Source of the DNA: Pseudomonadota bacterium
Lineage (GTDB): Bacteria; Pseudomonadota; Gammaproteobacteria; Burkholderiales; Burkholderiaceae_C
DNA length: 64,000 bases
Direction of reading: 5' to 3'
Assembly (NCBI GenBank): GCA_020161065.1
Contig: JAIUPH010000040.1
Span: forward strand, 61,961-125,960
The position numbers and the translations under genes are program-made. This document shows, in pieces, positions 5,359 to 21,518 of this stretch. The notes under the pieces were generated by a model. It ran no database searches. It was not told where the DNA came from and saw only the letters and a program-made list of their open reading frames with translations. Each line of letters starts with the position of its first letter. Position 1 is the first letter of the stretch.

Positions 5359-6366
5359 CCGGACACCCTCGTCATCGTGACGCCGGCGCTGGCCGCGGCC
5401 AACAACGGCAACTGGCAGACGGCCCACCGCTGGGCCGGCATGCTGCGGCCAGCTTACCGCGTGCACCTGGCCGCGCAGTGGCAGGCCGGCGACGAGGCCG
5501 CGATGATCGCGCTGCACGCGCGGCGCTCGGCGCCGGCGGTGGCGGCCTGGCGCGCCGCCCACCCGGCGCGGCCGCTGCTGCTGGTGCTGACCGGCACCGA
5601 CCTGTACCGCGACATCGCGCTCGACGCCGAGGCCCGCCGCTCGCTGGCCCTCGCCGATGCGCTGGTGCTGCTGAACGAACTGGGCGCGCGCAGCCTGCCC
5701 GAGGCGCTGCGGCCGAAGGCGCACGTCATCCTGCAGTCCTGCGCCGCGCGCCGGCCGCTGCCGCGAACCGGGCGCCACCTGCGCGCCGTGATGGTGGGCC
5801 ATCTGCGCGACGAGAAGGATCCGCGCACCTACTGGCGCGCCGCCGAGCGGCTGGCGGCGCGCGCCGACATCGTGTTCGATCACATCGGCGCCGCGCTGGA
5901 CCCGACGCTCGGCGCCGAGGCCGGCGCGCTGGCGGCCCGGCTGCCGCGCCTGCGCTGGCTGGGGGCGCTGGCGCATGCCGAGACACGCCGGCGCATCCAG
6001 GCCGCGCACGTGCTGGTGCACGCCAGCCGCATGGAAGGCGGCGCGCATGTCGTCATCGAAGCCATTCGCAGCGGCACGCCGGTGCTGGCCACGCGCATCG
6101 ACGGCAACGTCGGCCTGCTGGGCAGCGGCTACCAAGGCCTGTTCGAGCCCGGCGACGACGCGGCGCTGGCCGCGCTGCTGGTGCGCGCCCGCGACGACGC
6201 CGCCCTGCTGCCGCGGCTGGCGGCGCAACTGGCGCCGCGCGCGCCGCTGTTCGCGCCCGCGGCCGAGCGCAGCGCGCTGCGGCAACTCGTCGGCCACTGC
6301 CTGGCGGCCGGCGGCCGCACCGCCCCCGCAGACGGGGGTGGTCGAAGCGGGCCGCCTCGCCTGTAA
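5353..6366 (+). CDS. senB: Selenosugar synthase SenB (TIGR04348-type glycosyltransferase)
   Basis: A 337-residue family-4-like glycosyltransferase starting at a GTG. The N-terminus VIVTPALAAANNGNWQTAHR is the hallmark of this small family. LTGTDLYRDI lies near residue 80, and a donor-binding segment HASRMEGGAHVVIEA near 220-235. SenB is known to make a selenosugar from selenophosphate and a UDP-sugar, which SenA then uses. The gene is divergent to senA with a 6-base overlap of the 5' ends. No selenophosphate synthase (senC/selD) lies nearby, so that step must be encoded elsewhere. The last about 25 residues are low-complexity. Confidence 0.85.
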   Translation: MHPDTLVIVTPALAAANNGNWQTAHRWAGMLRPAYRVHLAAQWQAGDEAAMIALHARRSAPAVAAWRAAHPARPLLLVLTGTDLYRDIALDAEARRSLALADALVLLNELGARSLPEALRPKAHVILQSCAARRPLPRTGRHLRAVMVGHLRDEKDPRTYWRAAERLAARADIVFDHIGAALDPTLGAEAGALAARLPRLRWLGALAHAETRRRIQAAHVLVHASRMEGGAHVVIEAIRSGTPVLATRIDGNVGLLGSGYQGLFEPGDDAALAALLVRARDDAALLPRLAAQLAPRAPLFAPAAERSALRQLVGHCLAAGGRTAPADGGGRSGPPRL

Positions 6367-6469
6367 CGAAAAGCTGCTGCCTTCTATACTGCCCGCGGCC
6401 TGGCGACAGCCGGGTCACGTCGGTGAAGTTCGGCCGCCCCAGGCGGCCGCGTGGGGTTTGCGCACTGCG

Positions 6470-9400
6470 ATGAGTTTCGAGTCCATCGTCGATGCCGCCG
6501 TGGCGCTGTTGCGGCGCCGCGGCCGCGTCACCTATCGCATGCTGCAGCGCGAATTCGCGCTCGACGACGCGGCGCTGGCCGACCTGCGCGACGAACTGGT
6601 GCTGGGCCAGCGCGTGGCCCGCGACGAAGGCGGCCTGGTGCTCGAATGGACCGATCGCGGCAACGACGTGTCCGAGCGGCGCTGGCTGACGGTGTTGTTC
6701 TGCGACCTGGTCGGCTCCACGCGCTTGTCGGCGCAGCTCGACCCGGAAGACCTGCACGACGTCGTGCGGCGCTACCACGACACCTGCACCGAGGCGCTGC
6801 AGCCCACCGGCGGCTGGATCGCCCAGTACATGGGCGACGGCCTGATGGTGTACTTCGGCTATCCCAACGCCAACGAAGACGATGCCGAACGCGCGGTGCG
6901 CGCCGGGCTGAGCCTGGTGCAAGCGGTGGCGCGCCTGAGCCGCGAGCTGCAGCCGCGCGTGCCCAGCGCCCTGGCCGTGCGCGTGGGCATCCACACCGGC
7001 CGCGTGGTGGTCGGCGGGCTGGGCGACGCGCGCAACCGCGAGAACCTGGCGATGGGCGAGGCGCCCAACCTGGCCGCGCACATCCAGGCGCATGCCGAGC
7101 CCGGCACGGTGCTGGTCAGCGCCGCCACCTGGGAGCTGCTGCCGCCCGGCTTCGACGCCGAGGACCTGGGCCCGGTGGTGCTGAAGGATCCGTCGCGCCC
7201 GCTGCACCTGCTGCGCGTGCGCGGCGAGCGCCGCACCCACGGCGCCGCCGAAGCGCCCCCGGCGCCGCGGCTGGAAGCGGCCGATGGCCCGTTCGCGCGC
7301 TTGTGCACGCTGTGGGCGCAGGTGCGCCACGGCCCGGGCCGCGTGCTGCTGCTGCGCGGCGAGGCGGGCCTGGGCAAGTCGCGCCTGGCGGCCGAGCTGT
7401 GCGGCCTGGCCGCGCGCGACCGCGTGCCGCTGCGCATGCTGCGCTGCTCGGCCTTTCACCGCCACACGGCGCTGCACCCCATCGCCAGCGAACTGCTGGC
7501 GATGGCCGGGCTGGACCCCGATGCGCCCGGCGACGACGTGCCGCGGCGGCTGGCCGGCGCGCTGCAGGCCGACGGCATCCACCACCCCGCGGCCGAGCGG
7601 CTGCTGCCCGCGCTGTACGGCGCGGCCCCGGCCGCTGGCGAGCGCCCGGCTGCCGGCGCCTTGTCGGCCGAGCAGCGCATGCAGGCGCTGCAGGCGCTGA
7701 TGGCCGACTGGCTGGCCGCCGGCGCGCGCAACGGCCCGGCCCTGCTGCTGTGCGAAGACGTGCAATGGGCCGACCCGTCGACGCTGGCGGTGCTGCGCCG
7801 CCTGGCCGGCAAGCTGCCGCCCGGGCTGCTGCTGCTGATGACGGCCCGGCCCGAGATCGAGCTGGCCTTCGACCCGCCGCCGCCCGAAGTGATCGGGCTC
7901 GACCGCATGGCGGCGCCGTTCATCCGCGAGATCGTGCTAGGCCTGCCCGGTGCGCAGGCGCTGCCGGCGGCCACGCTGGAGCGCATCGCCGTGCTCGCCG
8001 AAGGCGTGCCGCTGTACGCCGAGCAGATCGCGCGCTCGGTGCTCGAAACGCTGCACGACGCGCCGGGCAGCGACGGCGACGGCGACGCCGGCCGCGCGGG
8101 CGACGCGCCGGCGTCGATCGAAGTGCCGGCCAGCCTGAGCGCGTCGCTGCTGGCGCGGCTGGACCGCATGGGCTCGGCCAAGGCCGTGGCCCAGGTGGCC
8201 GCGCTGCTGGGCCCGGTGTTCTCGCGCCAGCTCCTGGCCGCCGTCTGCGGGCTGCCGCCGGCCGAGCTGTCCGGCGCGCTGGCGCAGCTGGAACGCGGCG
8301 GCATTCTGCGCGCCGCCGACGTCGGCGCGCCCGGCCGCTACGTGTTCGGCCATGCGCTGCTGCAGGCCGTCGCGGCCGACTCGATGCTGCGCGCCGCGCG
8401 CCAGGCCGCGCATGCCCACATCGCCGAGGTGCTGCAGTCGAACTTCGCCGCCGCCACGCAGGCCGAGCCCGAGACGCTGGCGCGCCACTTCAGCGGCGCC
8501 GGCAAGCCCTGGCAGGCCGCGGCGCAATGGCGGCGCGCCGGCGAGCAGGCGCTGGCGCGCTCGGCACTGGTCGAGGGCTTGTCGCACCTGCGGCTGGGCA
8601 TGGACGAGCTGGCCGCCCTGCCCGCCGGCGCGGAGCGCGACGCGCTGGAGCTGTCGCTGCAGATTCCGCTGGCCAGCGCGCTGCGCGCCGTGCAAGGCGT
8701 GGCCGCGCAGGCCACCGGCCAGGCCTACGAACGCGCCGTGGCGCTGGCCGAGCAGCGCGCCGATGGCGAGGGCTTGATCCCGGCGCTCAACGGCTTGTAC
8801 TCGTACCACCTGGTGGGCAACCGCTTCGACGCCGCGCGCGCGCCCGCCGAGCGGCTGCTGGCCGAAGCCAGCGCGCGCGGCAACGCGCTGTTCCAGATGA
8901 TCGGCCATCGCGCCGTCGGCGCCGTGGCGCTGCACATCGGCGAGCCCAAGGCGGCGCTCGCCCATCTGGAACGCGGGCTGGCCATGTACGACGGGCCGAC
9001 GCACGCGCCGCTGGCGCCGCAGCTGGGCATCGACCACCGCGTGATGACGTCCAACTTCCTGGCGCTGGCCTGCGCGGTGCTGGGCGAGGACGAACGCGCG
9101 CAGGCGGTCCTGGCCGATTCACTGGCCTGGGCCAACGAGATCGGCCACGCGCACAGCGTCGGACAGGCCTTGTCGTTCCGCTGCATCGTCGGCGCGCTGC
9201 ACGACGACTGGGCCGCCATGCCGGCCGAGGCCGAACGCACGAGCGCGCTCGCCCGCCAGCACGGCTTGACGCTGATGCAGATCGTCGGCGAGTTCTTCAC
9301 GCTGGCCACGCAGGCCCTGCAAGGCCCGACCGCCGAGGTGGCGCCGGCCGTCGCCGGCATGCAGGCCGCGCTGCAGCGCTGGTGGGCCACCGGCGCCTAC

Positions 9401-9691
9401 AACTACCGCCCGCTGTGCCAGTCTTTGCTGGCGCGGGCGCTGGCGCGGCTGCAGCGGCACGACGAAGCGCTGGCGCTGCTCGAACTGGCCCAGCGGCAGA
9501 TGGCCGAAGCCGGCGAGCGCTGGATCGAAGCGCCGCTGTGGCGCTTGCGCGGCGAACTGTTGCCCGCGGGCTCGGCGGCGCAGGCCGAGGCCTGGGCGCA
9601 AGGCCGCGCGGTGGCCCGCTCGCAGGGAGCACTGGGCCTGCTGCGGCGCTTCGTGGCGCCGGCGCCGGCCGAGATTCAAGACGCCGATTGA
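6470..9691 (+). CDS. Class III adenylate/guanylate cyclase fused to AAA-type ATPase and TPR region
   Basis: A 1073-residue signalling protein. A small winged-helix-like N-terminus (1-65) is followed by a class III cyclase domain (about 70-255) with LFCDLVGSTR carrying the first metal Asp79 and MGDGLMVYFG carrying Asp123. A STAND/AAA ATPase follows with P-loop GEAGLGKS near 297-304 and Walker B LLLCEDVQWAD near 425. The remaining C-terminal half is alanine-rich helical repeats of TPR type. It would make cAMP or cGMP in response to an unknown ligand. Its end overlaps by 16 bases the end of the convergent flavin monooxygenase gene. A protein with a cyclic-nucleotide-binding domain sits at the far side of that operon. 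Confidence 0.87.
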   Translation: MSFESIVDAAVALLRRRGRVTYRMLQREFALDDAALADLRDELVLGQRVARDEGGLVLEWTDRGNDVSERRWLTVLFCDLVGSTRLSAQLDPEDLHDVVRRYHDTCTEALQPTGGWIAQYMGDGLMVYFGYPNANEDDAERAVRAGLSLVQAVARLSRELQPRVPSALAVRVGIHTGRVVVGGLGDARNRENLAMGEAPNLAAHIQAHAEPGTVLVSAATWELLPPGFDAEDLGPVVLKDPSRPLHLLRVRGERRTHGAAEAPPAPRLEAADGPFARLCTLWAQVRHGPGRVLLLRGEAGLGKSRLAAELCGLAARDRVPLRMLRCSAFHRHTALHPIASELLAMAGLDPDAPGDDVPRRLAGALQADGIHHPAAERLLPALYGAAPAAGERPAAGALSAEQRMQALQALMADWLAAGARNGPALLLCEDVQWADPSTLAVLRRLAGKLPPGLLLLMTARPEIELAFDPPPPEVIGLDRMAAPFIREIVLGLPGAQALPAATLERIAVLAEGVPLYAEQIARSVLETLHDAPGSDGDGDAGRAGDAPASIEVPASLSASLLARLDRMGSAKAVAQVAALLGPVFSRQLLAAVCGLPPAELSGALAQLERGGILRAADVGAPGRYVFGHALLQAVAADSMLRAARQAAHAHIAEVLQSNFAAATQAEPETLARHFSGAGKPWQAAAQWRRAGEQALARSALVEGLSHLRLGMDELAALPAGAERDALELSLQIPLASALRAVQGVAAQATGQAYERAVALAEQRADGEGLIPALNGLYSYHLVGNRFDAARAPAERLLAEASARGNALFQMIGHRAVGAVALHIGEPKAALAHLERGLAMYDGPTHAPLAPQLGIDHRVMTSNFLALACAVLGEDERAQAVLADSLAWANEIGHAHSVGQALSFRCIVGALHDDWAAMPAEAERTSALARQHGLTLMQIVGEFFTLATQALQGPTAEVAPAVAGMQAALQRWWATGAYNYRPLCQSLLARALARLQRHDEALALLELAQRQMAEAGERWIEAPLWRLRGELLPAGSAAQAEAWAQGRAVARSQGALGLLRRFVAPAPAEIQDAD

Positions 9692-11313
9692 AGCGGCGAC
9701 AACGACCGCGACGGCGACGGCGCCCGTGCCGCGGCCGCGCCCCGCTCGCTGAGCGCGCCGGCCTGCCACAGCCGGCCGAAGGCGGCCGCCGTGCGCGCCG
9801 GCCCGAAGGCGGCGTGCCAGCGGTCCAGCAGCACGGCCAGCGTCGGCGCCTCGTCCGCTGCGCCCAGCGCGGCCAGCCAGCGCTCGATCGGCACGCCGGC
9901 GAGGTGCGTCACCGGCTCATCGAAGCCGGGCGCCGCGAGCGCCGGCCGTTGCCGCACCCAGCCGTCGTCGAGCACCGTGTGAGGCTCGATTCTGACGTTA
10001 GCGGCCAGCGCCAGCCTCGCCTGCAGGTCCGGCCAGGCGGGCACCGGCGGCGCGGCCCGCGCGCGCGGCGTCCAGAACGGGCCGGGCCACTGCGCGGCGG
10101 GCGCCGCGTGATGGCTGCCGGCCAGCCGCGCATGCCGTTGCGCGTGGGCGCGGCTGCGCGCGCGGTGCAGCTCCCAGGCCAGCGCGGCGTCAGCCGGGCG
10201 GTGCCAGGCGGTGTGCACGCAGGCGGCGGCCTGCACGCCGCTGCGCAGCGCCGCCGCCAGGCCCTGCGACGACAGCGGGTCGATGCAGGCCGCGGCGTCG
10301 CCGGCCAGCAGCAGCCCGGGCGCCGGCGCGGCATCGGCCGCCGCGCGCGGCGTGGCATCGCAGACGCGCAAGGCGACCAGCACGCAGCCGGCCAGCCGGC
10401 TCGACAAAGGCGCGGCCGCCGCCAGGTGCCGGCGATAGAGGCGTTCGCGGCCGCCGCCGTCCAGGCCGTGCAGCGCGGCGGCATCGACGAAGGCGGCGAC
10501 GCACCGTGCGGCCGCGGCCTCGCCTGCGCCATCGCCTGCGCCCTCGCCCTCGCTCGTGCCCGCGCTCACGCCGACCGACGGCAGCAGCCAGACCCAACCG
10601 TCGGCGTGCGCCGCCACCACGCTGCCGCCGAACGGCGACGCGCCGCCGGCCGCATCGCCAGTCGCCTCGCCCGCCGCATGCCGCGGCCGCCAATGGCCGC
10701 ACAGCGCCACGCTGCGCGGGCCATCGGCCGCCGCCGGCGCGCCGCGGCGGCCGCGGGCGTCGATCACGAGGTCGGCGCGCAGCAGCGTGTGCCGGCCGTC
10801 GTGGCGCAGCGGCGTGGCCCAGCCGCCGTCCAGCGGCTGCGGCGCGCCGGCATGGGCGCCCAGCAGGCGGGCGCCGGCGGCGCACGCGGCCTGCCGCAGC
10901 AGCGCGTCGAAGCGGTCGCGCGGCAGGGCCAGCGCGTCGCGCGCGCTGCCGCCGGCGGCCATTGCCGCGGCGGCCATCGCCCCGTCGGCGCGGTTGGCGG
11001 CGGCTGGTGGCCAATGGCGTTCGCTCGAGGCATCGGCGCGCGCGCCGCAGCGCGCCGGCAGGTCGGCCAGGCCCAGTTCGGCCAGCAGCGGCAGCGCGCC
11101 GGCGGCCAGCGTCTCGCAGGGGTGGCTGCGCTCGCTGCCCGGGTGAAGGCGGCCGCGCTCGACCAGGGTCACCGCATGGCCGCGCCGCGCCAGGCACAGC
11201 GCCGCCACCGCGCCGGCCGGCCCGCCGCCCAGCACGGCGACCTGCGCACCGCGGCGCGGGACCGCCGCGGCGCCGGCGATCGCGGCATCAGCCGAAGAGC
11301 TCGGGCCGCGCAT
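9676..11313 (-). CDS. LodB/QhpG-like FAD-dependent monooxygenase (halogenase fold)
   Basis: A 545-residue flavoprotein. The Rossmann motif VLGGGPAGAVAALCLARRG begins near residue 23, the DARGRRG segment follows mid-protein, and the second FAD motif is LLAGDAAACIDPLSSQG. This is the p-hydroxybenzoate hydroxylase/tryptophan halogenase fold. LodB and QhpG, which hydroxylate a protein-bound Trp during formation of a cysteine tryptophylquinone (CTQ) cofactor, belong to the same fold, and the neighbours here suggest that role. The ATG at 11313 overlaps the radical SAM gene by 26 bases. The last about 120 residues form a separate poorly conserved helical region. A catalytic halogenase Lys could not be assigned. 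Confidence 0.72.
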   Translation of the reverse strand: MRGPSSSADAAIAGAAAVPRRGAQVAVLGGGPAGAVAALCLARRGHAVTLVERGRLHPGSERSHPCETLAAGALPLLAELGLADLPARCGARADASSERHWPPAAANRADGAMAAAAMAAGGSARDALALPRDRFDALLRQAACAAGARLLGAHAGAPQPLDGGWATPLRHDGRHTLLRADLVIDARGRRGAPAAADGPRSVALCGHWRPRHAAGEATGDAAGGASPFGGSVVAAHADGWVWLLPSVGVSAGTSEGEGAGDGAGEAAAARCVAAFVDAAALHGLDGGGRERLYRRHLAAAAPLSSRLAGCVLVALRVCDATPRAAADAAPAPGLLLAGDAAACIDPLSSQGLAAALRSGVQAAACVHTAWHRPADAALAWELHRARSRAHAQRHARLAGSHHAAPAAQWPGPFWTPRARAAPPVPAWPDLQARLALAANVRIEPHTVLDDGWVRQRPALAAPGFDEPVTHLAGVPIERWLAALGAADEAPTLAVLLDRWHAAFGPARTAAAFGRLWQAGALSERGAAAARAPSPSRSLSPLQSAS

Positions 11314-12799
11314 CGGACAGGCGCGCGTAGCTGCGCAGGCAGTGGTCGAGCCAGCCGCGGATGAAATCGCAGGCCGCGCGGCCGCGGTGCAGCACCTCGT
11401 GGTGGCAGCCGCCGCCGCACAGGTAGCGCGCCCAGCAACTGGCGCATGGCTGCTGGCGATGGACGTGGCGCTGCGCCAGCCACGCGCCGCGGGCCTGGTC
11501 GTCGATGCCGCGGCCGAGGTCGCCGAAGCGCGCCGCGTCGTCGCCGATGAAGCGGTGGCAGGCGTGCAGCGCGCCGTCGGCGGCCACGCCCAGGTAGCCG
11601 GCGCCGGCGCCGCAGGGCAGCGGCCGGTGGGTGCCGCGATGCAGTTCGCGCAAGGCGTCGAGCAGGTTGGCGAACGGATAGGCGTCGGGCTTGCCGTCGC
11701 GCAGCAATTGGCGCTCGCAAGCGTCGGCAACGTCGACGATCTGCGCCAGCAGCTCGGCAAAGCCGCCATCGGCGATGCGCAGCGCGGCGTCCGCCGCCAC
11801 CAGGCTGGGCGCCACGCCGACGGCGGCGAAGCCCAGGCCGATCAAGTGCTCGACATCGCCGCGCAGCGCGCGGTGCAAGGGCGTGACGGTGATGCGGGCG
11901 CTGGCGCGCAGCCGCGGCCGGCCCGGCAGCGCGGCTTCGCCCTGGCGCGCCAGCAGCGCCGGCAGCCGCGCCAGCACCTGGGCATGGCTGCCGCCGCCGC
12001 CGCGGCGCGGCCGCAGCCGGTCGTTCAGCGCGGCGCTGCCGTCGAGGCTGACCGTGACCGCAAAGCCATGGTGGGCGAAGAACGCGGCGTCGTCGTCGGT
12101 CAGCCGCGTGGCGTTGGTGGTCAAGGCCAGTTGCAGCCGCAGGCCGCGGCGGGCACAGGCTTCGCCGGCGTACTCGGTGGCGCGGCGCAACAGCGCGCGC
12201 GCGAGCAGCGGCTCGCCGCCCATGAAGGCCAGCCGCGCGGTGGCGCCGGGCGCCAGGCCGCCGACCAGGCGGTCCACCGCGGCCTGGGCCACGGCCCAGC
12301 CCATCGCCTCGCGCCGCGGCGCCTGGCCGAAGCTGCCGCCATCGGCATAGCAGTAGCCGCAGCCCAGGTTGCAGTGCTCGGCGATGTTCAGCGCCAGCGC
12401 GGTGACCGGCGGCGTGCCGATGTCGTCGTCGACCACCGCCGGCCGCGCGGCGGCCAGGTTCAGCCGCGCCAGCAGCGCCTGCTCTGCCGCCGGGCCGGCG
12501 GCCAGCGCGCGGTCGGCGGCGGCGGCCTCGGCCGGCGGCAGGTCGTAGACGCGCGAGCCGTCGACCACCAGCAGGTGGGCGCCGGCCGCGGTGTCGAAGC
12601 GGTGCAGCGCGCTGCCGCCGTGGGTCCGCGCCGCGGCCGGCGGCGCGGTCGGTGGCGCGGATGGCGAGGCGGTCGGCGACGCGGTCGGCAGCGCGGTCGT
12701 CGCGGACAGCGCCGATCGCAGCGGCCCGCGGCCGATGGCCGAGACCGGGATGCGCGTGATCGCCGCGGCCGCTTGCATCGGGGCCCCTTGGCGGCTCAT
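11288..12799 (-). CDS. Radical SAM / SPASM peptide-maturase-like protein
   Basis: A 503-residue protein. Residues 1-60 are low-complexity (repeated Pro/Ser/Thr/Ala). The radical SAM cluster motif is Cys143-x3-Cys147-x2-Cys150 (CNLGCGYCYA), followed by FMGGEPLL and TTNAT. The C-terminal SPASM region has Cys406, Cys424, Cys462, Cys465, Cys471, Cys475 and Cys487, enough for auxiliary iron-sulfur clusters. Proteins with this layout (anSME, QhpD, PqqE types) modify ribosomally made peptides or proteins. Its ATGA overlap with the LodA-like gene upstream argues that this protein is the substrate or partner. The target is inferred, not shown. Confidence 0.82.
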   Translation of the reverse strand: MSRQGAPMQAAAAITRIPVSAIGRGPLRSALSATTALPTASPTASPSAPPTAPPAAARTHGGSALHRFDTAAGAHLLVVDGSRVYDLPPAEAAAADRALAAGPAAEQALLARLNLAAARPAVVDDDIGTPPVTALALNIAEHCNLGCGYCYADGGSFGQAPRREAMGWAVAQAAVDRLVGGLAPGATARLAFMGGEPLLARALLRRATEYAGEACARRGLRLQLALTTNATRLTDDDAAFFAHHGFAVTVSLDGSAALNDRLRPRRGGGGSHAQVLARLPALLARQGEAALPGRPRLRASARITVTPLHRALRGDVEHLIGLGFAAVGVAPSLVAADAALRIADGGFAELLAQIVDVADACERQLLRDGKPDAYPFANLLDALRELHRGTHRPLPCGAGAGYLGVAADGALHACHRFIGDDAARFGDLGRGIDDQARGAWLAQRHVHRQQPCASCWARYLCGGGCHHEVLHRGRAACDFIRGWLDHCLRSYARLSDARPELFG

Positions 12800-14607
12800 G
12801 GCGCGGGCGCCAAGGCGTCGAACAGCGGCACGCCGATGCCGTGCCGGGCCAGTTGCTCGGCCTCTTGGCGCAGCACGTCCATCGCAGCGCGGGCCTCGGT
12901 GATGGCGCGCTGCGCCGCCTGCGGGTCGCGCCGCGCCTGCGCCTGGTAGCCGCTTTTCAGCGCCGCCATCAAGCGCGCCAGGTGCTGCAGCGCTTCGCGG
13001 GCCTGCGCCTCGGTGCCCAGCTGCAGCGGCCGCAGGTAGGGCGCGGTGGCGTCCTGCGCGCCGTAGGCGCCCAGCGTGCGGGCCAGCTGGTCGAAGCGCT
13101 CGTAGTGCGACACGCCGTCGCTGTCGATGCGCACCGCCAGCTCGAACAGGTGGCGTGGGTAGGCCGGCTGCTCCAGCGTGGCGACGCAGCGCGCATAGGC
13201 GCGGTCGAGGTCGCCGCGCGGGCGTTCGATGAACGCATAGCGGCGCAGGATGTCGGGCGACAGCGCCTGCAGGTCCGGCAAGGGCTCGCCCAGCCACAGC
13301 CGCGGCGGGGCCAAGACGTCGAGCACCGGTTCGTAGTGCTCGCCGCCCGGGTAGAAGCCGGCGGCATCCAGCTCCCACAGCAGCTGGTTGGCCCAGCGCA
13401 GGTGCGTCATCTCGCCGACGGCCAGCAGCGTCATCGCCTGGCGGGCGGCCACCAGGTCGTCGTGCATCGTCGCCCACGCGCCGTGCCGGTGGTCGTGCGC
13501 AGGGTCGCGCAGCGAGAACAGGCCGTACAGGTAGGCGCAGCACAGCGTCATCTCCAGCGGGGCCAGGCGGTGACGCAGGTCGTCGATCATCGCCGCCGCG
13601 TCGGGGTACGGCGTGGCGCGCTCGTGCCGCGGCGGGTGGTAGACGGCGCCGACCTCGTGCCCTTCGATCACGTAGGCCAGTTCCTGCCAGCGGCGGTTGA
13701 TCTCGAAGTGGTCGAGCTGCCAGGCGCGCGCTTCGGCGCGCGACGGCGGGGCGGCGACGTTGCCGGCCGGGCTGCGGTCGCGGCGCAGCCAGTCCAGCCA
13801 GGTCAGCGCCTGGTCGGGGTCGGCCGGCACGGCATCGCTCGGCGCCGTGCGGTCGATCTCGCCGAGCACCACGTCGGGGTGGTTCGAGGCCCAGTAGTAG
13901 CAGGCGCAGTCGCGGAAGTCGTGCTGCCAGGGGTTGCACATCGATTCGGTCAGTTCGCCCGGCGGGTAGGCGGTATCGATCACGCCGTCATCGCCGGTGT
14001 AGCGGCGGCGACGGCCGGTCAGCTCGACGACCGGCTGCGGGTCGGGCGCGTCGCGCTGGATCACGGCAATCTTGAGCGGCACGTCGGCACGCAGGCAGCG
14101 CACGAAGCGCCACAGCGTTTCGCCATCGTAGGGCGTGCCGTCCTCGGCGCTGCAGGCGATGCGCTTGCCTTCCTGTTCCAGCCAGTGCAGGTACCAGCGG
14201 CCGTTGCTCAGGCTGGTGCCGACCTTGCTCATGTAGGTGTCGAGCAGCGTCTGCACCCAGTGCTCGCCGCCGCGCTGCGGCAGCATGGGGTCGTTCAGGT
14301 AGTCGAGGTAGACCAGCCGGATGCCGGCCTGGTCGGGCAGCGCCTCGGGCACCGGCCGCAGCGGCTGCGTGACGACGCGAAACAGGATGCCGGGAAAGAA
14401 GCGGCCTTCGAGGTTGCGCACGTCCATCTCGAGGCCGGGAAAGCAGTTGCCGACGCCCGATTCGAGCCGCGCGGTGGCCGGGTTGCCGACGGCGCGGGCG
14501 TTGAAGTCCGGCGCGGCGGCGCGCGCCGTGCGGTTGCGCGCCCGCGGGCCGCCGCCCGGCCGCGACGACGGCTCGGCCGCGGCCGGCGCTGGGGTCGGTT
14601 GCTTCAC
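12796..14607 (-). CDS. LodA C-half-like protein with ferritin-like domain (putative quinone-cofactor subunit)
   Basis: A 603-residue protein starting at GTG, overlapping the previous stop as GTGA. Residues 50-250 include GVGNCFPGLEMDVRN and ELTESMCNPWQHDF, then RDCACYYWASNHPDVVLGE. The last two stretches resemble the region of LodA/GoxA amino-acid oxidases that carries the Cys and Trp of the CTQ cofactor; here Cys224, Cys234, Cys236 and Trp239 are candidates. Residues about 345-580 look like a VioB-type ferritin-like domain (VGEMTHLRWANQLLWELD). The LodA likeness is by eye and moderate. Function as an amine or amino-acid oxidase subunit is inference. Confidence 0.6.
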   Translation of the reverse strand: MKQPTPAPAAAEPSSRPGGGPRARNRTARAAAPDFNARAVGNPATARLESGVGNCFPGLEMDVRNLEGRFFPGILFRVVTQPLRPVPEALPDQAGIRLVYLDYLNDPMLPQRGGEHWVQTLLDTYMSKVGTSLSNGRWYLHWLEQEGKRIACSAEDGTPYDGETLWRFVRCLRADVPLKIAVIQRDAPDPQPVVELTGRRRRYTGDDGVIDTAYPPGELTESMCNPWQHDFRDCACYYWASNHPDVVLGEIDRTAPSDAVPADPDQALTWLDWLRRDRSPAGNVAAPPSRAEARAWQLDHFEINRRWQELAYVIEGHEVGAVYHPPRHERATPYPDAAAMIDDLRHRLAPLEMTLCCAYLYGLFSLRDPAHDHRHGAWATMHDDLVAARQAMTLLAVGEMTHLRWANQLLWELDAAGFYPGGEHYEPVLDVLAPPRLWLGEPLPDLQALSPDILRRYAFIERPRGDLDRAYARCVATLEQPAYPRHLFELAVRIDSDGVSHYERFDQLARTLGAYGAQDATAPYLRPLQLGTEAQAREALQHLARLMAALKSGYQAQARRDPQAAQRAITEARAAMDVLRQEAEQLARHGIGVPLFDALAPAP

Positions 14608-16301
14608 TTCGACACCTCGGGTTGAGGGTTAGGGGTTGCTGCCAGCCGATCGAGGAAGTCGATCATCAGGTGGTACTGGCGACGGGTCAGCGACAGCGGC
14701 ACGTAGTACGCGTCGCGCATGTAGGGCGGCATGCGCATGTCGTGCATCAGGTCGCGGTCGACGCGCGGGTCGCGGAAATCGGCGTGCGGCTCGGGGCCGG
14801 GCCGCTCGTCCCACTGGCCGAGCAGGCCGAACGGCGGCCGCAGCAGGCGCTTGACGCGATCGACGTTGCGGCGCAGGAAGTCGATCAGCACCGTCTCGTC
14901 CATCAGCGGGCCGTGCACATGGCCGATGGCGTTGGTGAAGCTCAGCGTGTCGCCGCGCACGCTGGGGCTGTAGACCGAATCGGTCTGCCCCGGCGTCAGG
15001 TCGCCGATGCGGTCGGCATAGGGCTTGTCGGCCCGGGTCATGCTGCGGCCGTCGGTCTGCGGCAAGCGGGCGCCGCCGCCGCCTTTCGGCGGCGGCGCGC
15101 TGCCGGCGCCGCCGCTGTTGTCCTGCAGCGCTTCGGTGCGCGCGGCATCGAGGTTCATCGACGACGCCGTTTCGAAGACGCGGCGGAACAGCGCCACCAC
15201 CTCGGCCTGCACCTGGGCGAAGGGCATCGTATCGACCGCCATCAGCCCGTGGTCGCGGTCGGCCAGGTCATCGTCGATGCCGTAGAACGGCCGGCGGTCC
15301 GGCGCGTAGTGCGGCGGGCCGACGAAGACGCGGCCTTCGGCCACGTAGCGCGTGCCGCGCCAGGCCAGCGCGGCGGTGATCAGCACGTCGCAGGTGTCGT
15401 CGACCACGGCCCAGGCGCGGCTGTCGCCTTCCTCGGCGCCGTCGTAGCCGTCCTGCGGCTGCGGGTCTTCGAACAGGCCGGTGACCATGCGGTACTGCGA
15501 GAACACCGTGTCCGGCGACAGGATGCGGTTCTCGGGCTCGACGATCATGTGCACGCGGCCGTCTTCCTTGCGGAAGAACTGCAGCGAGTCCCAGCGGCCG
15601 GTGACGGTCAGCCGGTCGGGTCCGTAGGCCGCCGTCGGCGGGCCGTAGACCTTGCCTTCGGCCGGCGTGAAGCGCAGGCGCAGCACCGACAGGTCGACCT
15701 CGGCGAAGCCCGGCTCGGCTTCGCTGCGCGGGCGCATCCATTGCACGGCGCCCAGCGGAATCGGCCGCTCGCGGCTGACCAGCGGCACCTGGCCCGCGGT
15801 GTGGCGGCTGAAGGCCTGCAAGGCATGGCGGCGATGGTCGGTGCCGGCGATCTCGGCCCGCGCCGTGAAGCCGCAGGCCGGGTCGTCGGTGCGGCGCGCG
15901 GCTTTCAGGTTGGAGGCCGTGACTTCGAGCGCCACGTGGTCCAGGCCGATGCCCAGTTCGGCCAGCAGGTCCAGCGTCACCGCCTGCTCTTCCAGGCCGC
16001 CGTCCGCCGCGCGCTGCAGCGTGGCCCACAGTTCGAGGAAAGGCGCCACCGGGCGGATGCGGCCGTCGTCGTCCTTGAAGCGGATGTGCTCGGGCAGGTA
16101 GGGCACCAGGCCGCCGTCGTCGCGCACGCCAAAGCTCACCGCCGGCTGCAGCACGGTGAGCGTGCTGCCGTGGGCGCTGCGCCCTTCGGCCCATTCGAAG
16201 GCCTCCAGCGGATGCGGGCTGCCGCCGACGCGGGCAATGGCCATCGGCGGATGGAAGTGCAGCCCGACCAGGCTGCGGCGCGTGCCGGTTCGCTCGCTCA
16301 T
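14604..16301 (-). CDS. LodA N-half-like protein (putative partner subunit)
   Basis: A 565-residue cytoplasmic protein without signal peptide or membrane segment. The start LVGLHFHPPMAIARVGGSP recalls the N-terminus of LodA-family oxidases, which begin with a similar IARVGNS motif. A low-complexity linker (SAPPPKGGGG) near residue 400 separates it from a C-terminal region with MHDMRMPPYMRDAYYVPLSL. The gene overlaps its upstream neighbour as ATGA and its downstream neighbour as GTGA, so the pair are probably made in equal amounts and may form one enzyme. No catalytic residues can be named. It could instead be a scaffold or an unrelated conserved protein. Confidence 0.5.
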   Translation of the reverse strand: MSERTGTRRSLVGLHFHPPMAIARVGGSPHPLEAFEWAEGRSAHGSTLTVLQPAVSFGVRDDGGLVPYLPEHIRFKDDDGRIRPVAPFLELWATLQRAADGGLEEQAVTLDLLAELGIGLDHVALEVTASNLKAARRTDDPACGFTARAEIAGTDHRRHALQAFSRHTAGQVPLVSRERPIPLGAVQWMRPRSEAEPGFAEVDLSVLRLRFTPAEGKVYGPPTAAYGPDRLTVTGRWDSLQFFRKEDGRVHMIVEPENRILSPDTVFSQYRMVTGLFEDPQPQDGYDGAEEGDSRAWAVVDDTCDVLITAALAWRGTRYVAEGRVFVGPPHYAPDRRPFYGIDDDLADRDHGLMAVDTMPFAQVQAEVVALFRRVFETASSMNLDAARTEALQDNSGGAGSAPPPKGGGGARLPQTDGRSMTRADKPYADRIGDLTPGQTDSVYSPSVRGDTLSFTNAIGHVHGPLMDETVLIDFLRRNVDRVKRLLRPPFGLLGQWDERPGPEPHADFRDPRVDRDLMHDMRMPPYMRDAYYVPLSLTRRQYHLMIDFLDRLAATPNPQPEVSK

Positions 16302-17896
16302 GGCGCCGCCTTGGCGCTGCGCCGGCGCGCGGGCTGGCGCGGCGGCGTGGGCGGATCGAGTTCAGGCACGGCAATCGCCGGCGGCCCATAGGGCTCGTAG
16401 GTGATGGCGCCGGGCGCCGCGGCCGGCCAGGCGCGGCCCGGCTCGGGGCTGACGCTCTGGCCGTAGCGGAAGACCTCGTGCGGGTCGTACTTGCGCTTGA
16501 TGGCCAGCAGCCGGCCGAACTGCTCGCCCCAGTAGCGGCGGCGGTAGTCGGTCTGCGCGGCGCGCGGGTAGTTCTGGTACGACTCGCCGTTGCTCAATGG
16601 TTCGACCAAGGCCATGAACTCGCCGAGGTAGGCCTGCAACTGGCGGCGCTCGTCGTCGTTCATCCAGAACACGTCGACGAAGAAGTCGCAGTCGGAATCG
16701 CGGTGGACGAAGGCGTTGAAGTCGCGCGGCACCGCATTGATCGCGCCGCCATAGGGCTCGATGCAGATCGTCGACCAGGTGTTCGGCGACGCGGCCAGCT
16801 TGCGGCAGATGTTCTTCCAGTCGGCGCGCTTGAGCGGCTTGCCGAACAACACCGACTGCTTGTCTTCGCGCGCCAGGTCCGGGCACGGCGGAATGTTCTC
16901 GAGCAGCCATTCATTCAGCTCGTTGTAGCTGCCGACGCGGTCGTAGACGGTCGACAGCACGCCGCCGGTGTCGTTCATCAGCGGCCGCAACAGCGCGTGG
17001 CCCTCTTTGCGGTCGCCCCAGTAGATGCCGCGCATCAGCAGCACCGGCGTCTGGTCGGGGCCGTTGAAGCTGATGAACAGCATGTAGCCGAGTTCCGGCG
17101 GCGCGCCCTGGCGCATGAAGCCCTTTTGCAGCGCCACCAGGGCATCGGGCGCCTGGTCCAGCGTCCACTGCAGGCCGAAGCCCCACAGCTTGGGCATGTC
17201 GTGCAGCCGGTAGGTGGCGCGCAGCAGCACGCCGAAGTTGTTGCCGGTGCCGCCGCGCAAGGCCCAGAACAGGTCGGCGTTGCAGTCGGCCGCGGCGCGC
17301 ACGATGCGGCCGTTGGCCAGCATCACCAGCATCTCTTCGACGTTGTCGCAGTTGATGCCGAACTTGCGCGAGGTGAAGCCGTAGCCGCCGCCTTGCATGT
17401 AGCCGGCCACGCAGACGTCGCCGCAGCCGCCGGTGGGCATGTGCAAGCCGTAGTCGGCCAGCGTGGCGTTGAGATGGCCCCAGTTGGTGCCCGGGCCGAC
17501 GATGGCGCGGCGCCCTTCGTAGTCGATGGTGACGGCGTTCAGGCGGCTCAGGTCGATCACCATGCTGTCGTTGACGCTGTAGCCGGCCGTCGAATGACCG
17601 CCCGAGCGCGTGGTGATCCACAGCCGGTGCCGGCGGGCGAAGGCCAGGCATTCCCAGACGTCCTGGAACACCTCGCAGTAGACGATCAGCAGCGGGAACT
17701 TCTGGAACGCCTGGTTGGTGAGCTGGCGCGCATGGTCGTAGCCGGGATCGGAGGGCAGCGTCACCGTGCCCTGCAGGCGCTTCTGGAACGCGTGCAACAC
17801 CGTCTGGTGCAACGCGACGTCGGAACCTTCGTTCGACGCGGCCCAGCCGGCCAGACGTTCGCGCCGTTCGCGCTGCTTGCGACTCATTCGCCACAT
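16298..17896 (-). CDS. BBE-type FAD-linked oxidase (bicovalent flavin)
   Basis: A 532-residue FAD_binding_4 plus BBE (berberine bridge enzyme) protein. RSGGHSTAGYSV carries the His, and GGCGDVCVAGYMQGGGYG the Cys, expected to bind FAD through two covalent bonds. The C-terminus has YWGEQFGRLLAIKRKYDP, the BBE signature. Such enzymes oxidise alcohols, amines or sugars with O2. A GAGGAG ribosome site precedes the ATG at 17896; an ATG at 17886 is also in reach but in another register. It is the first gene of the operon, and its stop overlaps the next start as ATGA. No secretion signal is seen, although many BBE enzymes are exported. Confidence 0.85.
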   Translation of the reverse strand: MWRMSRKQRERRERLAGWAASNEGSDVALHQTVLHAFQKRLQGTVTLPSDPGYDHARQLTNQAFQKFPLLIVYCEVFQDVWECLAFARRHRLWITTRSGGHSTAGYSVNDSMVIDLSRLNAVTIDYEGRRAIVGPGTNWGHLNATLADYGLHMPTGGCGDVCVAGYMQGGGYGFTSRKFGINCDNVEEMLVMLANGRIVRAAADCNADLFWALRGGTGNNFGVLLRATYRLHDMPKLWGFGLQWTLDQAPDALVALQKGFMRQGAPPELGYMLFISFNGPDQTPVLLMRGIYWGDRKEGHALLRPLMNDTGGVLSTVYDRVGSYNELNEWLLENIPPCPDLAREDKQSVLFGKPLKRADWKNICRKLAASPNTWSTICIEPYGGAINAVPRDFNAFVHRDSDCDFFVDVFWMNDDERRQLQAYLGEFMALVEPLSNGESYQNYPRAAQTDYRRRYWGEQFGRLLAIKRKYDPHEVFRYGQSVSPEPGRAWPAAAPGAITYEPYGPPAIAVPELDPPTPPRQPARRRSAKAAP

Positions 17897-18076
17897 GGCC
17901 GGTACTCCTCTTGGGTGATGGGCGCCAGGTCGTCGGTGCCGCGGCCGCGACCGTTCGCGGTGGCCGCTGGCCGGCACTGTGACGACTTGTATCAGCAGCG
18001 CCGGCTGTCGACAAGGCCCCATGCCAATCGTGACGGCGGTGACGGCGGTGACGGAGCAGCGCGTCCTTGCCTCTCT

Positions 18077-18106
18077 CAAGTTGATCCGGCTCCGCCGGGC
18101 AACTTG
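18077..18106 (-). terminator. Possible hairpin terminator of the cNMP-domain gene
   Basis: CAAGTT and AACTTG flank an inner CCGG/CCGG pair, giving a stem-loop 66 bases after the stop of the minus-strand gene at 18172. A second G/C palindrome (CCCCCGCGGGGG at 18109-18120) lies next to it. There is no clear U-run, so rho-independent termination is uncertain. Confidence 0.35.
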
Positions 18107-18171
18107 ATCCCCCGCGGGGGGCGGGACGGGCCCCCGGCCCGGACCTGGGGGTGCTCAGAAGGTGCGCAGTG

Positions 18172-19302
18172 TCAGGCGGTGCGCTGCTTCAGGCGCTGCG
18201 CCAGGCACCAGGCCAGGTTGCGCCAGAACACCAGCGCCGCGGCCGGCGGCAGCGCGGCCAGCGCCGCGGGGCTGAACTGCAGCAGCCTGGTGCCCGGCAC
18301 GGCGGCCACCAGGTCGGCGCTGCGCGGCTCGCCGGTGACGAAGGCGATTTCGCCGAAGGGCTCGCCCGGCCCCATGGCGCCGACCACGCGGCCGTTGATC
18401 ACCGCGTGCACCACGCCGGCCGCGACCACGCCCAGCAGGCGGCCGCCGTCGCCTTGCGCCAGGATACGATCGCCCACCGCGCTGTCCAGCGTCAGGCTGC
18501 CGGCCAGCAGCGCCTGCACCTCGGCGTCCGACAGGCCGCGGCTGAGCAAGGCATGCACCGGCCGCTCGCCTTCGTCGGCGGCCGGCTGGTAGGCGGCCAC
18601 GCCGGTGTCGATGCGGCCATGGCGGCGCTCGAAGTCGCGCCACCACGGCAGCGTGGGGTCGTCGTCGCCGAAGTCGCCGGCCTTGACCAGCAGGCGCAGT
18701 GGCGAGTGCACGGCCTCCAGGTGGGCGCGGTCGGCGGCCAGCAGCACCAGCGGGATGCGGTAGCCGCCATAGGCGCTGGCCCGCATCGGCGCCAGCGGCC
18801 GCGCGCCCAGCCGCAGGTAGCGCTGCAGCAGCGCCGGCTCGGCGATGAAGGACGCCACGCTGGCGCCGTCCTGCAGATGCAGGCGCAAGGACTCGGCCAG
18901 CAGCACCAGCCCGGCCGCCGTCTTGCGCGCTTCGGGCAGCAGCGCGAAGAAGGTGACGACCACCGTGCGCTCCAGCACCGCCGGGCTCAGCCGGTCCAGC
19001 GCATAGGCGCCGACCGTGGCGGCCACGCCCAGCAGGTGCCGCGCCTCGGTGGTCTGCAGCACGCCCACCATGCGGCCGCCTTGGCGGTCGCGCACGCCCC
19101 AGGCGCGCGTCGGCGGCGTCGTGCCGCCGAAGGCCGGCGACGCCCAGGGGTCGTCGCCGACGATGCGGTGCAACTCTTCGCCGCGCACCGCGCGCAGCAG
19201 CGCGCTGCCGTCGTCGAGATCGGCGCCGCCGCCGATCGGCGCGGCCGCATAGCGGCCGGTCATCACGTCCCATTGGCCGCGAAGGGTTTGCAGCAGGTTC
19301 AT
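18172..19302 (-). CDS. FeeM/GNAT-like domain fused to cyclic-nucleotide-binding domain
   Basis: Counted from the ATG at 19302 the protein has 376 residues; the frame is open to a TTG at 19380. Residues about 1-230 look like an N-acyl-amino-acid-synthase or autoinducer-synthase type GNAT fold (TFFALLPEARKTAAGLVLL, then a YGGYRIPLVLLA segment). Residues about 255-370 form a cNMP-binding fold with the phosphate-binding cassette PGEPFGEIAFVTGEPRSADL. It would sense cAMP or cGMP and could acylate a small molecule. Its gene precedes the BBE/LodA-like operon on the same strand, and the cyclase lies at the other end. The N-terminal assignment is tentative. Confidence 0.6.
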   Translation of the reverse strand: MNLLQTLRGQWDVMTGRYAAAPIGGGADLDDGSALLRAVRGEELHRIVGDDPWASPAFGGTTPPTRAWGVRDRQGGRMVGVLQTTEARHLLGVAATVGAYALDRLSPAVLERTVVVTFFALLPEARKTAAGLVLLAESLRLHLQDGASVASFIAEPALLQRYLRLGARPLAPMRASAYGGYRIPLVLLAADRAHLEAVHSPLRLLVKAGDFGDDDPTLPWWRDFERRHGRIDTGVAAYQPAADEGERPVHALLSRGLSDAEVQALLAGSLTLDSAVGDRILAQGDGGRLLGVVAAGVVHAVINGRVVGAMGPGEPFGEIAFVTGEPRSADLVAAVPGTRLLQFSPAALAALPPAAALVFWRNLAWCLAQRLKQRTA

Positions 19303-19633
19303 GCGGTCCTCGGCGGTCGGGTCCTCGGCGGTCGATGTGGCGATGCAAGGATAGGAGCCAGCGCGCGACTCTAGAATCAATCAGCACCACGTCGTCGAAC
19401 GCCATTGAAACTCGCCACCTGCGAGTGCGATTGCGGTCCCATGTAAGTTCAACGAGGATCAAGCCCCAAGCGCAACTCGTTGATGCGCTTGAGATTCTCG
19501 TTCACCGCGGTCCATACGGTGTCACGCCGCCGATGGCGAAATGGGTAGCCAAGTGGGTAGCTAGCGGGTAGCTAGCCGGGTAGCTAGCAACCTACATTGG
19601 GGCAGACATCAACAGGCCTAGGAGGCCCGTGAA
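19303..19633. other. Non-coding junction between chromosome and island
   Basis: No convincing complete gene is seen. A short minus-strand open frame from about 19545 down to a stop at 19449 ends in NENLKRINELRLGLDPR and reads like the 3' end of a gene, possibly one cut by island insertion, but I do not recognise it. No tRNA was found, although P4-type integrases often sit beside one. A short tandem repeat lies at 19543-19588. Confidence 0.4.
19543..19588 (+). repeat. Tandem GGGTAGCTAGC repeat upstream of the integrase
   Basis: Three exact copies of GGGTAGCTAGC are at 19555-19565, 19566-19576 and 19578-19588, with a partial copy GGGTAGC at 19543. They end 45 bases before the integrase start. 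Short direct repeats beside an integrase can be arm-type binding sites, but that is inference. Confidence 0.8.
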
Positions 19634-20890
19634 GTGCGTCAGCGCAACCTTCTTGACGACGTCCAGATCCGTCACTGGATTGCAAGGGGCGAGCCCGTTG
19701 CAAAGTCCGATGGCGACGGACTGACCTTCACCCTGTCCAAAGCGGGAACCGCGGCATGGGTGTTTCGCTACCGGAACGCCGGGACCCGACGCAAGGAGGT
19801 CACGCTTGGCAACTACCCCGACCTCACACTTGCCGCGGCTCGGAAGCTCGCTCGTGAACGCCGGGTTGACATCGACAAAGGGCGCGACCCGGCAGCCGAC
19901 AAGAAGCTGGAAAGGATGCGCGCCCAGCAGGCCTGGACCGTGCGCACGCTCGCCGAGGACTACAAGACCAAGAAGCTGACCACCCCGCCGCTCGCCGAGG
20001 GAACCGTGTACTACCGGCGATGGGACATCGACAAAGTCATCGTCCCGAAGCTCGGCTCCCTCGAAGTTCGGCAGATCGTGCCGGCGGACATCGTTCACAT
20101 CCTCGAGAGCAGCAAGCGCTCGTGGACGATCTGCAAGCGAATCCTGACCTCGGCCAAACAGCTCTTTGGGCATGCTTGCGGCAAGAGGCTCATCGACTAC
20201 AACCCATGTGCCGGCATCGAACTCGTTGCGCTGATGGGCGCTCGGCCTCCCGTGCGCAAGCGGGTCATGCTCACTGAAGAGGAGCTTCGGACTCTGCTCA
20301 AGGACGTGGATGACATCGGCCTTGCAAACGCGCTTGCGCTTCGGATCCTGCTCGCGACTTGTGTTCGATCCATCGAGTTGACGAAGGCTCGCTGGGAGCA
20401 CATCGACCTGGAACGAGGTACCTGGTGGGTGCCGGAAGAATCCGTCAAGACTCGGGTCGGTTTCCTGGTCCCGCTTACCCCGACGGTCGTGACCTGGTTC
20501 CAGCGTTTGCATGAGTTGGCTGGCAATTCGACGTGGGTGCTGCCGGCACGAACGGCTCGCCGCGTCCGCCTCCAGGGAGACACCCATGTGGGCAAAACGA
20601 CCCTGTGGGCAGCCATCACTCGTGCATTCGAGCAAGGAAAGATCGACGTGCGGCGGTTTACACCGCACGACACCCGCAGCACCGCCAAGGGGCACATGCG
20701 AAACATGGGTGTCGCCAACGAGATCACCGAGTTGGCGCTGAACCACACCCTCAAGGGTATGGAGGCCATCTACGACGTACGGGAAGAGATCCCCGAGCGA
20801 CGCGCGGCCTTGGAACTCTGGGCTGCCTTCATTTCCGCTTGCGAGGCCGGTACCCCTTGGAACGTAGCACCGCTGCGCCGCGCGGCTTGA
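19634..20890 (+). CDS. P4-type tyrosine integrase (DUF4102 arm-binding domain)
   Basis: A 418-residue site-specific recombinase starting at GTG with a perfect AGGAGG at 19620-19625. The N-terminal arm-DNA-binding domain shows GLTFTLSKAGTAAWVFRYR and EVTLGNYPDLTLAAAR. The catalytic part has Arg in ATCVRSIELTKARW, the HDTRST box and a C-terminal EAIYD with the nucleophile Tyr. It would integrate and excise the island that follows. Codon use is less extreme in GC than the genes to the left, consistent with transfer. The attachment repeats could not be identified by eye. Confidence 0.92.
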   Translation: MRQRNLLDDVQIRHWIARGEPVAKSDGDGLTFTLSKAGTAAWVFRYRNAGTRRKEVTLGNYPDLTLAAARKLARERRVDIDKGRDPAADKKLERMRAQQAWTVRTLAEDYKTKKLTTPPLAEGTVYYRRWDIDKVIVPKLGSLEVRQIVPADIVHILESSKRSWTICKRILTSAKQLFGHACGKRLIDYNPCAGIELVALMGARPPVRKRVMLTEEELRTLLKDVDDIGLANALALRILLATCVRSIELTKARWEHIDLERGTWWVPEESVKTRVGFLVPLTPTVVTWFQRLHELAGNSTWVLPARTARRVRLQGDTHVGKTTLWAAITRAFEQGKIDVRRFTPHDTRSTAKGHMRNMGVANEITELALNHTLKGMEAIYDVREEIPERRAALELWAAFISACEAGTPWNVAPLRRAA

Positions 20891-20978
20891 GCTGACCAAC
20901 CCAGTTCTTCGTCGCACCGTTCCACTGTGCCAGCCGGGCGTATGGCGTGCGCCGCACACGTTCGGCCGGGCACTCAGG

Positions 20979-21518
20979 TCAACTGCGCATGCGGCACCGG
21001 GCGCGATAGATGCACGATGCGCACACTCGGCTCGTTGCCGGATAGTAAGGCGACTCCGTGCCCGCCAGAAGGGCTTCGCGCCGCGAGGCAAAGTCCCAAA
21101 CGACATGCGGCGACAAGAGCCTGACCGAATGCGCGCTGCGCCCGGCTGCCGACTCGACGACAACCCATGCGACGGGAGCGACACTTTCCCCTGTCTCGCC
21201 CTCCAGCGCAACGCGCTGCGCCGACAGTTCAATGATGTCCGATAGGTGGACCCTGTCGGCTTGTCGCGTCTTGAGTTCGACCAGAACGATTGGCCCGCTC
21301 TGCCCTCGGTACGCGCGATCCACGCGAGCTACCACCTGCCAGTCGTCACCCGACCTGAAAGTCCGCTCCGAGTAGGCGAGCGTGTGATCCTTCAACCCCT
21401 CGGGCATCCATCGATCCACCTGCACGGAGCGCCGGCGAACAAGGCGTGCCGCAGCCCACACCGCTGTCACGCAGACAACGCAGCCGGCGAGAAGAAGCCA
21501 GAGCTCAGCCGCTGGCAT
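20979..21518 (-). CDS. Membrane-anchored Cas4/RecB-like PD-(D/E)XK nuclease core
   Basis: A 179-residue protein. One N-terminal membrane helix (about 5-25) is followed by the nuclease core: Asp67 (RVDRAY), Glu81-x-Lys83 (VELKTR) and Gln101 (SAQRVAL). Three cysteines close the protein as C166-x2-C169-x5-C175, the C-terminal part of a Cas4-type 4Fe-4S site. The N-terminal cysteine that Cas4 proteins have is missing, but a matching C-x-R motif is in the overlapping upstream gene. The two may form one split nuclease. There are no CRISPR genes nearby, so an island-maintenance or exonuclease role is more likely. Confidence 0.62.
   Translation of the reverse strand: MPAAELWLLLAGCVVCVTAVWAAARLVRRRSVQVDRWMPEGLKDHTLAYSERTFRSGDDWQVVARVDRAYRGQSGPIVLVELKTRQADRVHLSDIIELSAQRVALEGETGESVAPVAWVVVESAAGRSAHSVRLLSPHVVWDFASRREALLAGTESPYYPATSRVCASCIYRARCRMRS

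Follow-up and report, generated by a model that had tools for sequence, protein, structure and literature searches.

A bacterial gene cassette combining a split LodA-like protein with relatives of the QHNDH maturation enzymes

Introduction

Which kind of enzyme does the five-gene operon studied here encode, and which of the known routes to a quinone cofactor do its maturation genes follow? Protein-derived quinone cofactors are few. The operon lies in the window, i.e. the whole 64,000-nucleotide stretch of DNA that was analysed, and a first-pass annotation had taken it for a cysteine tryptophylquinone (CTQ) system in a form that it did not know. In LodA, the CTQ residues are C516 and W581 (PMC4417212). 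In QhpC, the small gamma subunit of quinohemoprotein amine dehydrogenase (QHNDH), CTQ is formed by C37 and W43, and thioethers join C27 to D33 and C41 to D49 (PMC8172795; for C41-D49 also PMC7876137). The two maturation routes are described as convergent (PMC7876137).

The form that was new to the first-pass annotation is not described in the open-access papers that we searched either. These gave no account of a radical SAM maturase occurring together with a LodA-like protein, which does not prove its absence elsewhere. On our best reading of the sequences, what is new in the cassette is the combination of a LodA-type protein with QHNDH-type maturation, parts known until now from two separate systems.

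The operon and its products

Five overlapping minus-strand genes span positions 9676-17896 (Table 1). The overlaps of 4, 4, 4 and 26 bases all lie where the first-pass annotation had placed them. The search against family models that it proposed as a check, here with Pfam, named a BBE oxidase (PF01565, 100.9 bits; PF08031, 49.3 bits), a radical SAM protein (PF04055, 45.7 bits), an FAD_binding_3 protein (45.4 bits) and, in the C-half, a ferritin-like domain (PF12902, 27.3 bits, cut-off 22.3); LodA_C in the C-half stayed under its cut-off (22.8 bits against 25). No Rfam family reached its gathering score in positions 5000-22000 of the window.

Table 1. Positions of the cassette genes, their main features and the neighbouring genes in the window.
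Feature	Position	Strand	Remark
BBE (berberine bridge enzyme-like) family FAD-linked oxidase	16298..17896	-	ORF open upstream to 18079
LodA/GoxA N-terminal half (N-half), 565 aa	14604..16301	-	profile and fold match
LodA C-terminal half (C-half) with fused ferritin-like domain, 603 aa, GTG start	12796..14607	-	
Quinone-site motif C224-x5-D230-x3-C234-x-C236-x2-W239-x5-D245 in the C-half	13873..13938	-	
Ferritin-like (PF12902) domain, C-half residues 335-598	12814..13605	-	
Radical SAM/SPASM protein, QhpD lineage, putative thioether-forming maturase	11288..12799	-	TIGR03906 best family
FAD monooxygenase, QhpG lineage, putative Trp hydroxylase	9676..11313	-	NF049967 best family, and tree
Class III nucleotidyl cyclase with AAA ATPase, putative regulator	6470..9691	+	PF00211 73.1 bits, PF13191 54.5 bits
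Protein with C-terminal cyclic-nucleotide-binding domain	18172-19302	-	
Tyrosine recombinase/integrase, arm-type DNA-binding domain	19634-20887	+	

The N-half had no Pfam or NCBIfam match. Its family profile matches the solved GoxA (E 1e-7) and LodA (E 1e-4), and LodA and GoxA were the top fold matches of its predicted structure, far above other folds. For the C-half, a profile-profile comparison of the family (93 rows) with canonical LodA C parts gave a probability of 96.8 and E 3e-10; nine of 15 canonical sequences had passed the cut for this profile. The N-half, by profile and fold, and the C-half, by profile, are homologous to successive portions of LodA/GoxA. Both halves lie in a single ORF in six of 94 related loci (L035, L089, L091, L092, L095 and L096); the fusions of L089 and L096 are of the Dyadobacter type. 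A LodA/GoxA member would be one chain with LodA_C above the cut-off, whereas the window has two genes and a score below it. No further LodA_C match was found in the window's own genome.

The annotation of a split LodA-like protein with a ferritin link is therefore borne out by the profiles, the N-half fold and the PF12902 match. The expected structural likeness to LodA was recovered by fold for the N-half. For the C-half the likeness to LodA is one of profile, and the fold search returned the ferritin part. In the AF2 model of the C-half, built for the chain alone, residues 224-242, i.e. the motif, are under pLDDT 50, and the LodA part gave no fold match; with the motif region so poorly modelled, this lack of a match carries no weight.

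PF12902 is the ferritin-like domain of VioB-type proteins. In the C-half the profile lies above its cut-off and the fold is helical and ferritin-like. E352, E399, H402, E461, D497 and H501, assigned by sequence pattern, are the likely diiron ligands. Compared with PF12902 proteins such as Caulobacter CC_0557, the domain is here instead fused to the LodA C-half, or encoded by a separate adjoining gene in layout C (see below). At one locus (L010, 3971-5605) the N-half protein seems, by annotation, to bear an extra ferritin-like domain, and the C-half HMM also matches it.

Conservation and layouts of the cassette

We collected 95 loci: 80 of 191 relatives from a genome scan, 14 plasmid loci (of 19 records) and the canonical LodA locus L002. 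Counts over 94 loci exclude L002, and the C-half is present in 94/94 by selection. In HMM searches of the 94 loci, the N-half and the radical SAM gene were each found in 89, the flavoprotein in 86 (in one of these, L088, with only 24 bits and apart from the other genes) and the BBE oxidase in 23. The radical SAM gene is absent from five loci. Three of these end inside the C-half (L033, L040, L063), L051 begins just before the C-half, and L036 is a truncated copy with 1.3 kb of sequence downstream. L054 showed no flavoprotein match within 17.6 kb.

In a tblastn search of 72,556 plasmid records, C-half relatives were found in 19 and N-half relatives in 19, with 18 common to both. This co-occurrence, together with the conservation in the genome scan, led us to reject a chance match or a single-genome oddity. 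The two plasmid records outside this overlap were odd. At L011 the N-half was visible only by HMM. At L130 (Azospirillum argentinense plasmid p5) the cassette starts like layout B but is cut by an IS3 transposase gene, which follows a shortened radical SAM gene; the C-half was not found. An apparent in-frame TGA in two congeners turned out to be the normal stop codon at the gene end.

Three layouts were observed. Layout A, that of the window, reads BBE / N-half / C-half with ferritin / radical SAM / flavoprotein; Thalassococcus halodurans DSM 26915 (L090) is a cultured carrier. Layout B reads N-half / radical SAM / C-half with ferritin / flavoprotein, and layout C reads ferritin-like gene / N-half / short C-half / radical SAM / flavoprotein. 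The cassette genes are homologous, conserved and linked in at least eight phyla, as assigned from the record titles (Proteobacteria, Cyanobacteria, Actinobacteria, Bacteroidota, Acidobacteria, Planctomycetes, Myxococcota and Nitrospirota). Their spread is patchy: 3/81 genomes of the window's genus were positive, its own included, and the 2/300 genomes of its order were its own and one with a canonical LodA.

All 23 BBE homologues lie just upstream of the N-half. In the flavoprotein tree layout A needs three changes and does not form a single clade, which may reflect repeated origin or loss of the BBE layout. The operon does have an oxidase gene of its own, as first annotated, but this feature is confined to one layout. 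On the other side, the cyclase/ATPase gene is convergent with the flavoprotein gene and their tails overlap by 16 bases. A homologue adjoins the cassette in 17 of the 23 BBE-type loci; the other six contigs have at most 829 bases past the flavoprotein gene or do not reach that gene. The original module limits of 9676-17896 were thus too narrow and left this neighbour out.

The quinone-site motif

The strongest evidence is a conserved C-x5-D-x3-C-x-C-x2-W-x5-D site in the C-half, which the first-pass annotation had overlooked. The motif is invariant in 14/14 C-half rows (the window and 13 plasmid loci) and in 53/53 rows of alignment A8; alignment A1 was made without L011, and A2 without L011 and L012. 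It is present in 93/95 loci, the exceptions being the canonical LodA locus L002 and L063, where the contig ends inside the gene. Since one genome-scan pattern contained part of the motif, the genome loci are biased towards it. The plasmid loci, picked by tblastn and free of this bias, have it in 14/14.

D230 and C234 align with D512 and C516 of the LodA chain, and W239 was matched to the LodA quinone Trp by context, with 16 canonical controls. The CTQ Cys, the Trp and the nearby Asp (LodA C516, W581 and D512) all have counterparts in the C-half. We also considered C55 (NCFPGLE) as the quinone Cys and rejected it, as LodA C516 aligns with C234 and L015 has F at this place.

In all 16 canonical LodA controls the D, C and W are retained, position D-6 is A or G, and there is no Cys between the quinone C and W. 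LodA itself has a Cys at D-5 and one control (L116) has one at D-1; D or E stands at W+6 in 3/14 tabulated. Since 16/16 controls are without the extra cysteines, the presence of these residues tracks that of the QhpD-like gene. The families cannot be told apart by spacing alone, because in the canonical LodA of L002 (1387-2955, minus strand) the quinone Trp also stands five positions after the Cys, and its context is WWPAQ as in QhpC.

The QhpC pattern is C-x5-D-x3-C-x3-C-x-W-x5-D (four loci, two genera). As in QHNDH, the C-half has a Cys six residues before the active-site Asp and an Asp six residues after the quinone Trp. The second Cys is one residue out of register, with 8 residues for C41-D49 and 9 for C236-D245. 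The profile of the C-half family did not match QhpC significantly (P 0.041, probability 1.3), and canonical LodA, which lacks the extra cysteines, matched it better (P 0.0012, probability 19.6). The likeness of the C-half to QhpC therefore rests on spacing.

The maturation enzymes

For the radical SAM protein the best NCBIfam model was TIGR03906 (QhpD) with 272 bits, below the equivalog cut-off of 453, followed by PapB with 215. All 42 alignment rows, two QhpD among them, have CxxxCxxC and the same seven SPASM-region cysteines without exception. Near 12 canonical LodA loci we found one weak radical SAM match only (L112, 93.5 bits), compared with 331 and 337 for true QhpD. QhpC (PF08992) had no match in the window's own genome, while the same model finds 4/299 genomes, so the QhpD-like enzyme needs another substrate.

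The flavoprotein scored best with NF049967 (QhpG; 200.6 bits, equivalog cut-off 240), and LodB reached 60.5. The trees took in 40 cassette loci. In the flavoprotein tree (54 rows: 40 cassette, 10 LodB, 4 QhpG), layouts A and C group with QhpG and layout B with LodB, and the support for this split is 99/95. The window flavoprotein falls on the QhpG side and not in the LodB/GoxB lineage, so QHNDH-type genes account for both maturation steps and the substrate protein is LodA-type. The earlier view that the operon joins both maturation logics through a LodB/QhpG-like flavoprotein held for the CTQ-type parts, but not for the LodB side. The radical SAM tree likewise sets layout B apart, and the two maturation genes thus seem to have travelled together; this tree was rooted on one very long row and its QhpD branch depth was not used.

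The window flavoprotein keeps QhpG E42, near FAD, and the GW-motif Trp, while the substrate-channel Arg47 and Arg70 are replaced by G and S (roles of these residues from PMC7876137). That the arginines are not conserved could be expected with a different protein substrate.

Proposed mechanism and alternatives

We consider it rather likely that the cassette makes a two-chain LodA-type quinoprotein with QHNDH-type maturation, i.e. by a cross-linking radical SAM enzyme and a Trp-hydroxylating flavoprotein. The radical SAM enzyme would link C224 to the active-site D230 and C236 to D245 by thioethers, as QhpD does in QhpC, and C55-E60 is perhaps a further thioether made by it. W239 would then be hydroxylated by the flavoprotein, and a C234-W239 bond and oxidation would give CTQ, with the rest of the LodA-like active site provided by the N-half. 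The mature enzyme would most likely oxidise an amine or amino acid with O2. From domain content one may guess that H2O2 is removed or used by the fused ferritin-like domain, which is probably diiron, that the BBE oxidase shares the substrate of the enzyme or works on its product, and that the cyclase/ATPase senses a signal that switches the module on. The cross-links, the quinone, the substrate and the role of the cassette are what we infer from the linked and conserved genes.

Several observations count against this proposal. Both maturation enzymes score below the QhpD and QhpG cut-offs, Arg47 and Arg70 are not conserved, and L054 has no flavoprotein match. The C-half/QhpC profile match is non-significant, the second Cys is out of register and the AF2 model is poor at the motif. 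LodA and L116 have cysteines of their own near the Asp (D-5 and D-1), D/E occurs at W+6 in 3/14 controls, and C55 is F in L015.

The C-half could also be modified to something other than CTQ, for instance a structural site that is hydroxylated or stapled by thioethers, or a metal-binding site of C224, C234 and C236. PapB-type ranthipeptide maturases score well too (215 bits), three cysteines inside 13 residues could bind metal, and the ferritin-like domain offers another redox centre. We nevertheless think such a product unlikely, as LodA D512 and C516 are kept, the Trp is kept in a [FYW]W-x4-P-like context, and 86/94 loci have a flavoprotein of the QhpG/LodB superfamily. Alternatively, the BBE oxidase, the flavoprotein, the VioB-like ferritin domain and the LodA-like protein might act in sequence in a small-molecule pathway, with the radical SAM enzyme modifying a metabolite or another peptide. 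Natural-product pathways often include BBE and tryptophan-halogenase-like flavoproteins, and the PF12902 match is to a VioB-type domain. Such a pathway strikes us as decidedly improbable, since only 23/94 loci have BBE whereas the remaining four genes are kept as a set in different phyla, few flanking families are shared from one layout to another, and the flavoprotein groups with QhpG and LodB, both protein modifiers.

There is very little chance, in our estimate, that the flavoprotein makes the CTQ of an ordinary LodA-type enzyme by itself and that the radical SAM gene lies beside it by accident. LodB and GoxB, which mature LodA and GoxA, are indeed flavoproteins (PMC7876137). Against an accident, the radical SAM gene is present in 89/94 loci, the remaining five being contigs cut short or, in one case, a truncated copy; the 12 canonical LodA loci have the one weak match near them, and the extra cysteines follow the gene.

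Relation to known systems

With the CTQ-dependent amino acid oxidases LodA/GoxA and their partners LodB/GoxB, the cassette shares the N-half fold, the C-half homology, the three quinone-site residues (Asp, Cys and Trp) and the presence in the operon of a flavoprotein from the same superfamily. It differs in that the protein is split into two chains and fused to a ferritin-like domain, its quinone site carries two additional cysteines and an invariant Asp, a radical SAM gene is present, and the window flavoprotein falls on the QhpG side. With QHNDH (QhpC/QhpD/QhpG), it shares the lineage of both maturation enzymes and two spacings, from the cross-linking Cys to the active-site Asp and from the Trp to the next Asp. 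In contrast to QHNDH, its substrate is LodA-type and not a small gamma subunit, the genome is without a QhpC gene, and the third QhpC cross-link (C7-E16) has no clear equivalent in the C-half. Diheme alpha and propeller beta subunits of QHNDH were not found by Pfam among the five operon and two flanking proteins.

In fungi, lodA-like genes of group V lie near a PF12902 gene (PMC4417212) and so also pair a LodA-like protein with a ferritin-like neighbour. The fungal genes are described with lodB-like genes, and the word 'radical' is absent from the main text of that paper.

The cassette may represent a third CTQ enzyme class that links the two known ones, with the LodA scaffold, a QHNDH cross-linked site including a thioether on the catalytic Asp, and members on both sides of the flavoprotein tree; we put this forward tentatively, as a plausible but somewhat doubtful reading. 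If it is true, LodA/LodB and QHNDH maturation would share ancestry and not be convergent (contra PMC7876137). With a widespread cassette that places QHNDH-type maturation on a LodA-type protein, the convergence question becomes testable by mass spectrometry of one protein. The cassette would also represent a large family, without an NCBIfam family name, whose members may be amine oxidases carrying an iron domain of their own. For QhpD-type radical SAM enzymes, the range of substrates would extend beyond a small subunit to a large enzyme in two pieces.

Flanking genes

Flanking families recur little between layouts (25 families listed), and the five annotated representatives were one cyclase, one DyP peroxidase, one kinase and two without a Pfam match. 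In the window, a protein with a C-terminal cyclic-nucleotide-binding domain is encoded directly upstream of the BBE gene, the cyclase being at the opposite end of the module. We left it out of the module, as only two weak homologues were found near other cassettes. A tyrosine recombinase/integrase with an arm-type DNA-binding domain lies beside the module, and no tRNA genes were found in the window. An island boundary beside the module is possible.

Around layout B (L004, L010 and others) the recurring neighbours include DyP-type peroxidases, a large protein that Pfam does not match and a C25 peptidase, the last also found beside layout C. In rhizobia, tyrosinase genes stand beside layout C (L008, 11086-12567; L015, 10266-14191), and L015 also has a multicopper oxidase. 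Tyrosinase and multicopper oxidase neighbours are similarly reported for a Bradyrhizobium lodA operon (PMC4417212). In several unrelated bacteria, a canonical lodA was found within about 10 kb of the split cassette (L048, L086, L096 and the plasmids NZ_CP132742.1, NZ_CP141049.1 and NZ_CP088279.1), and the two quinoproteins may work together.
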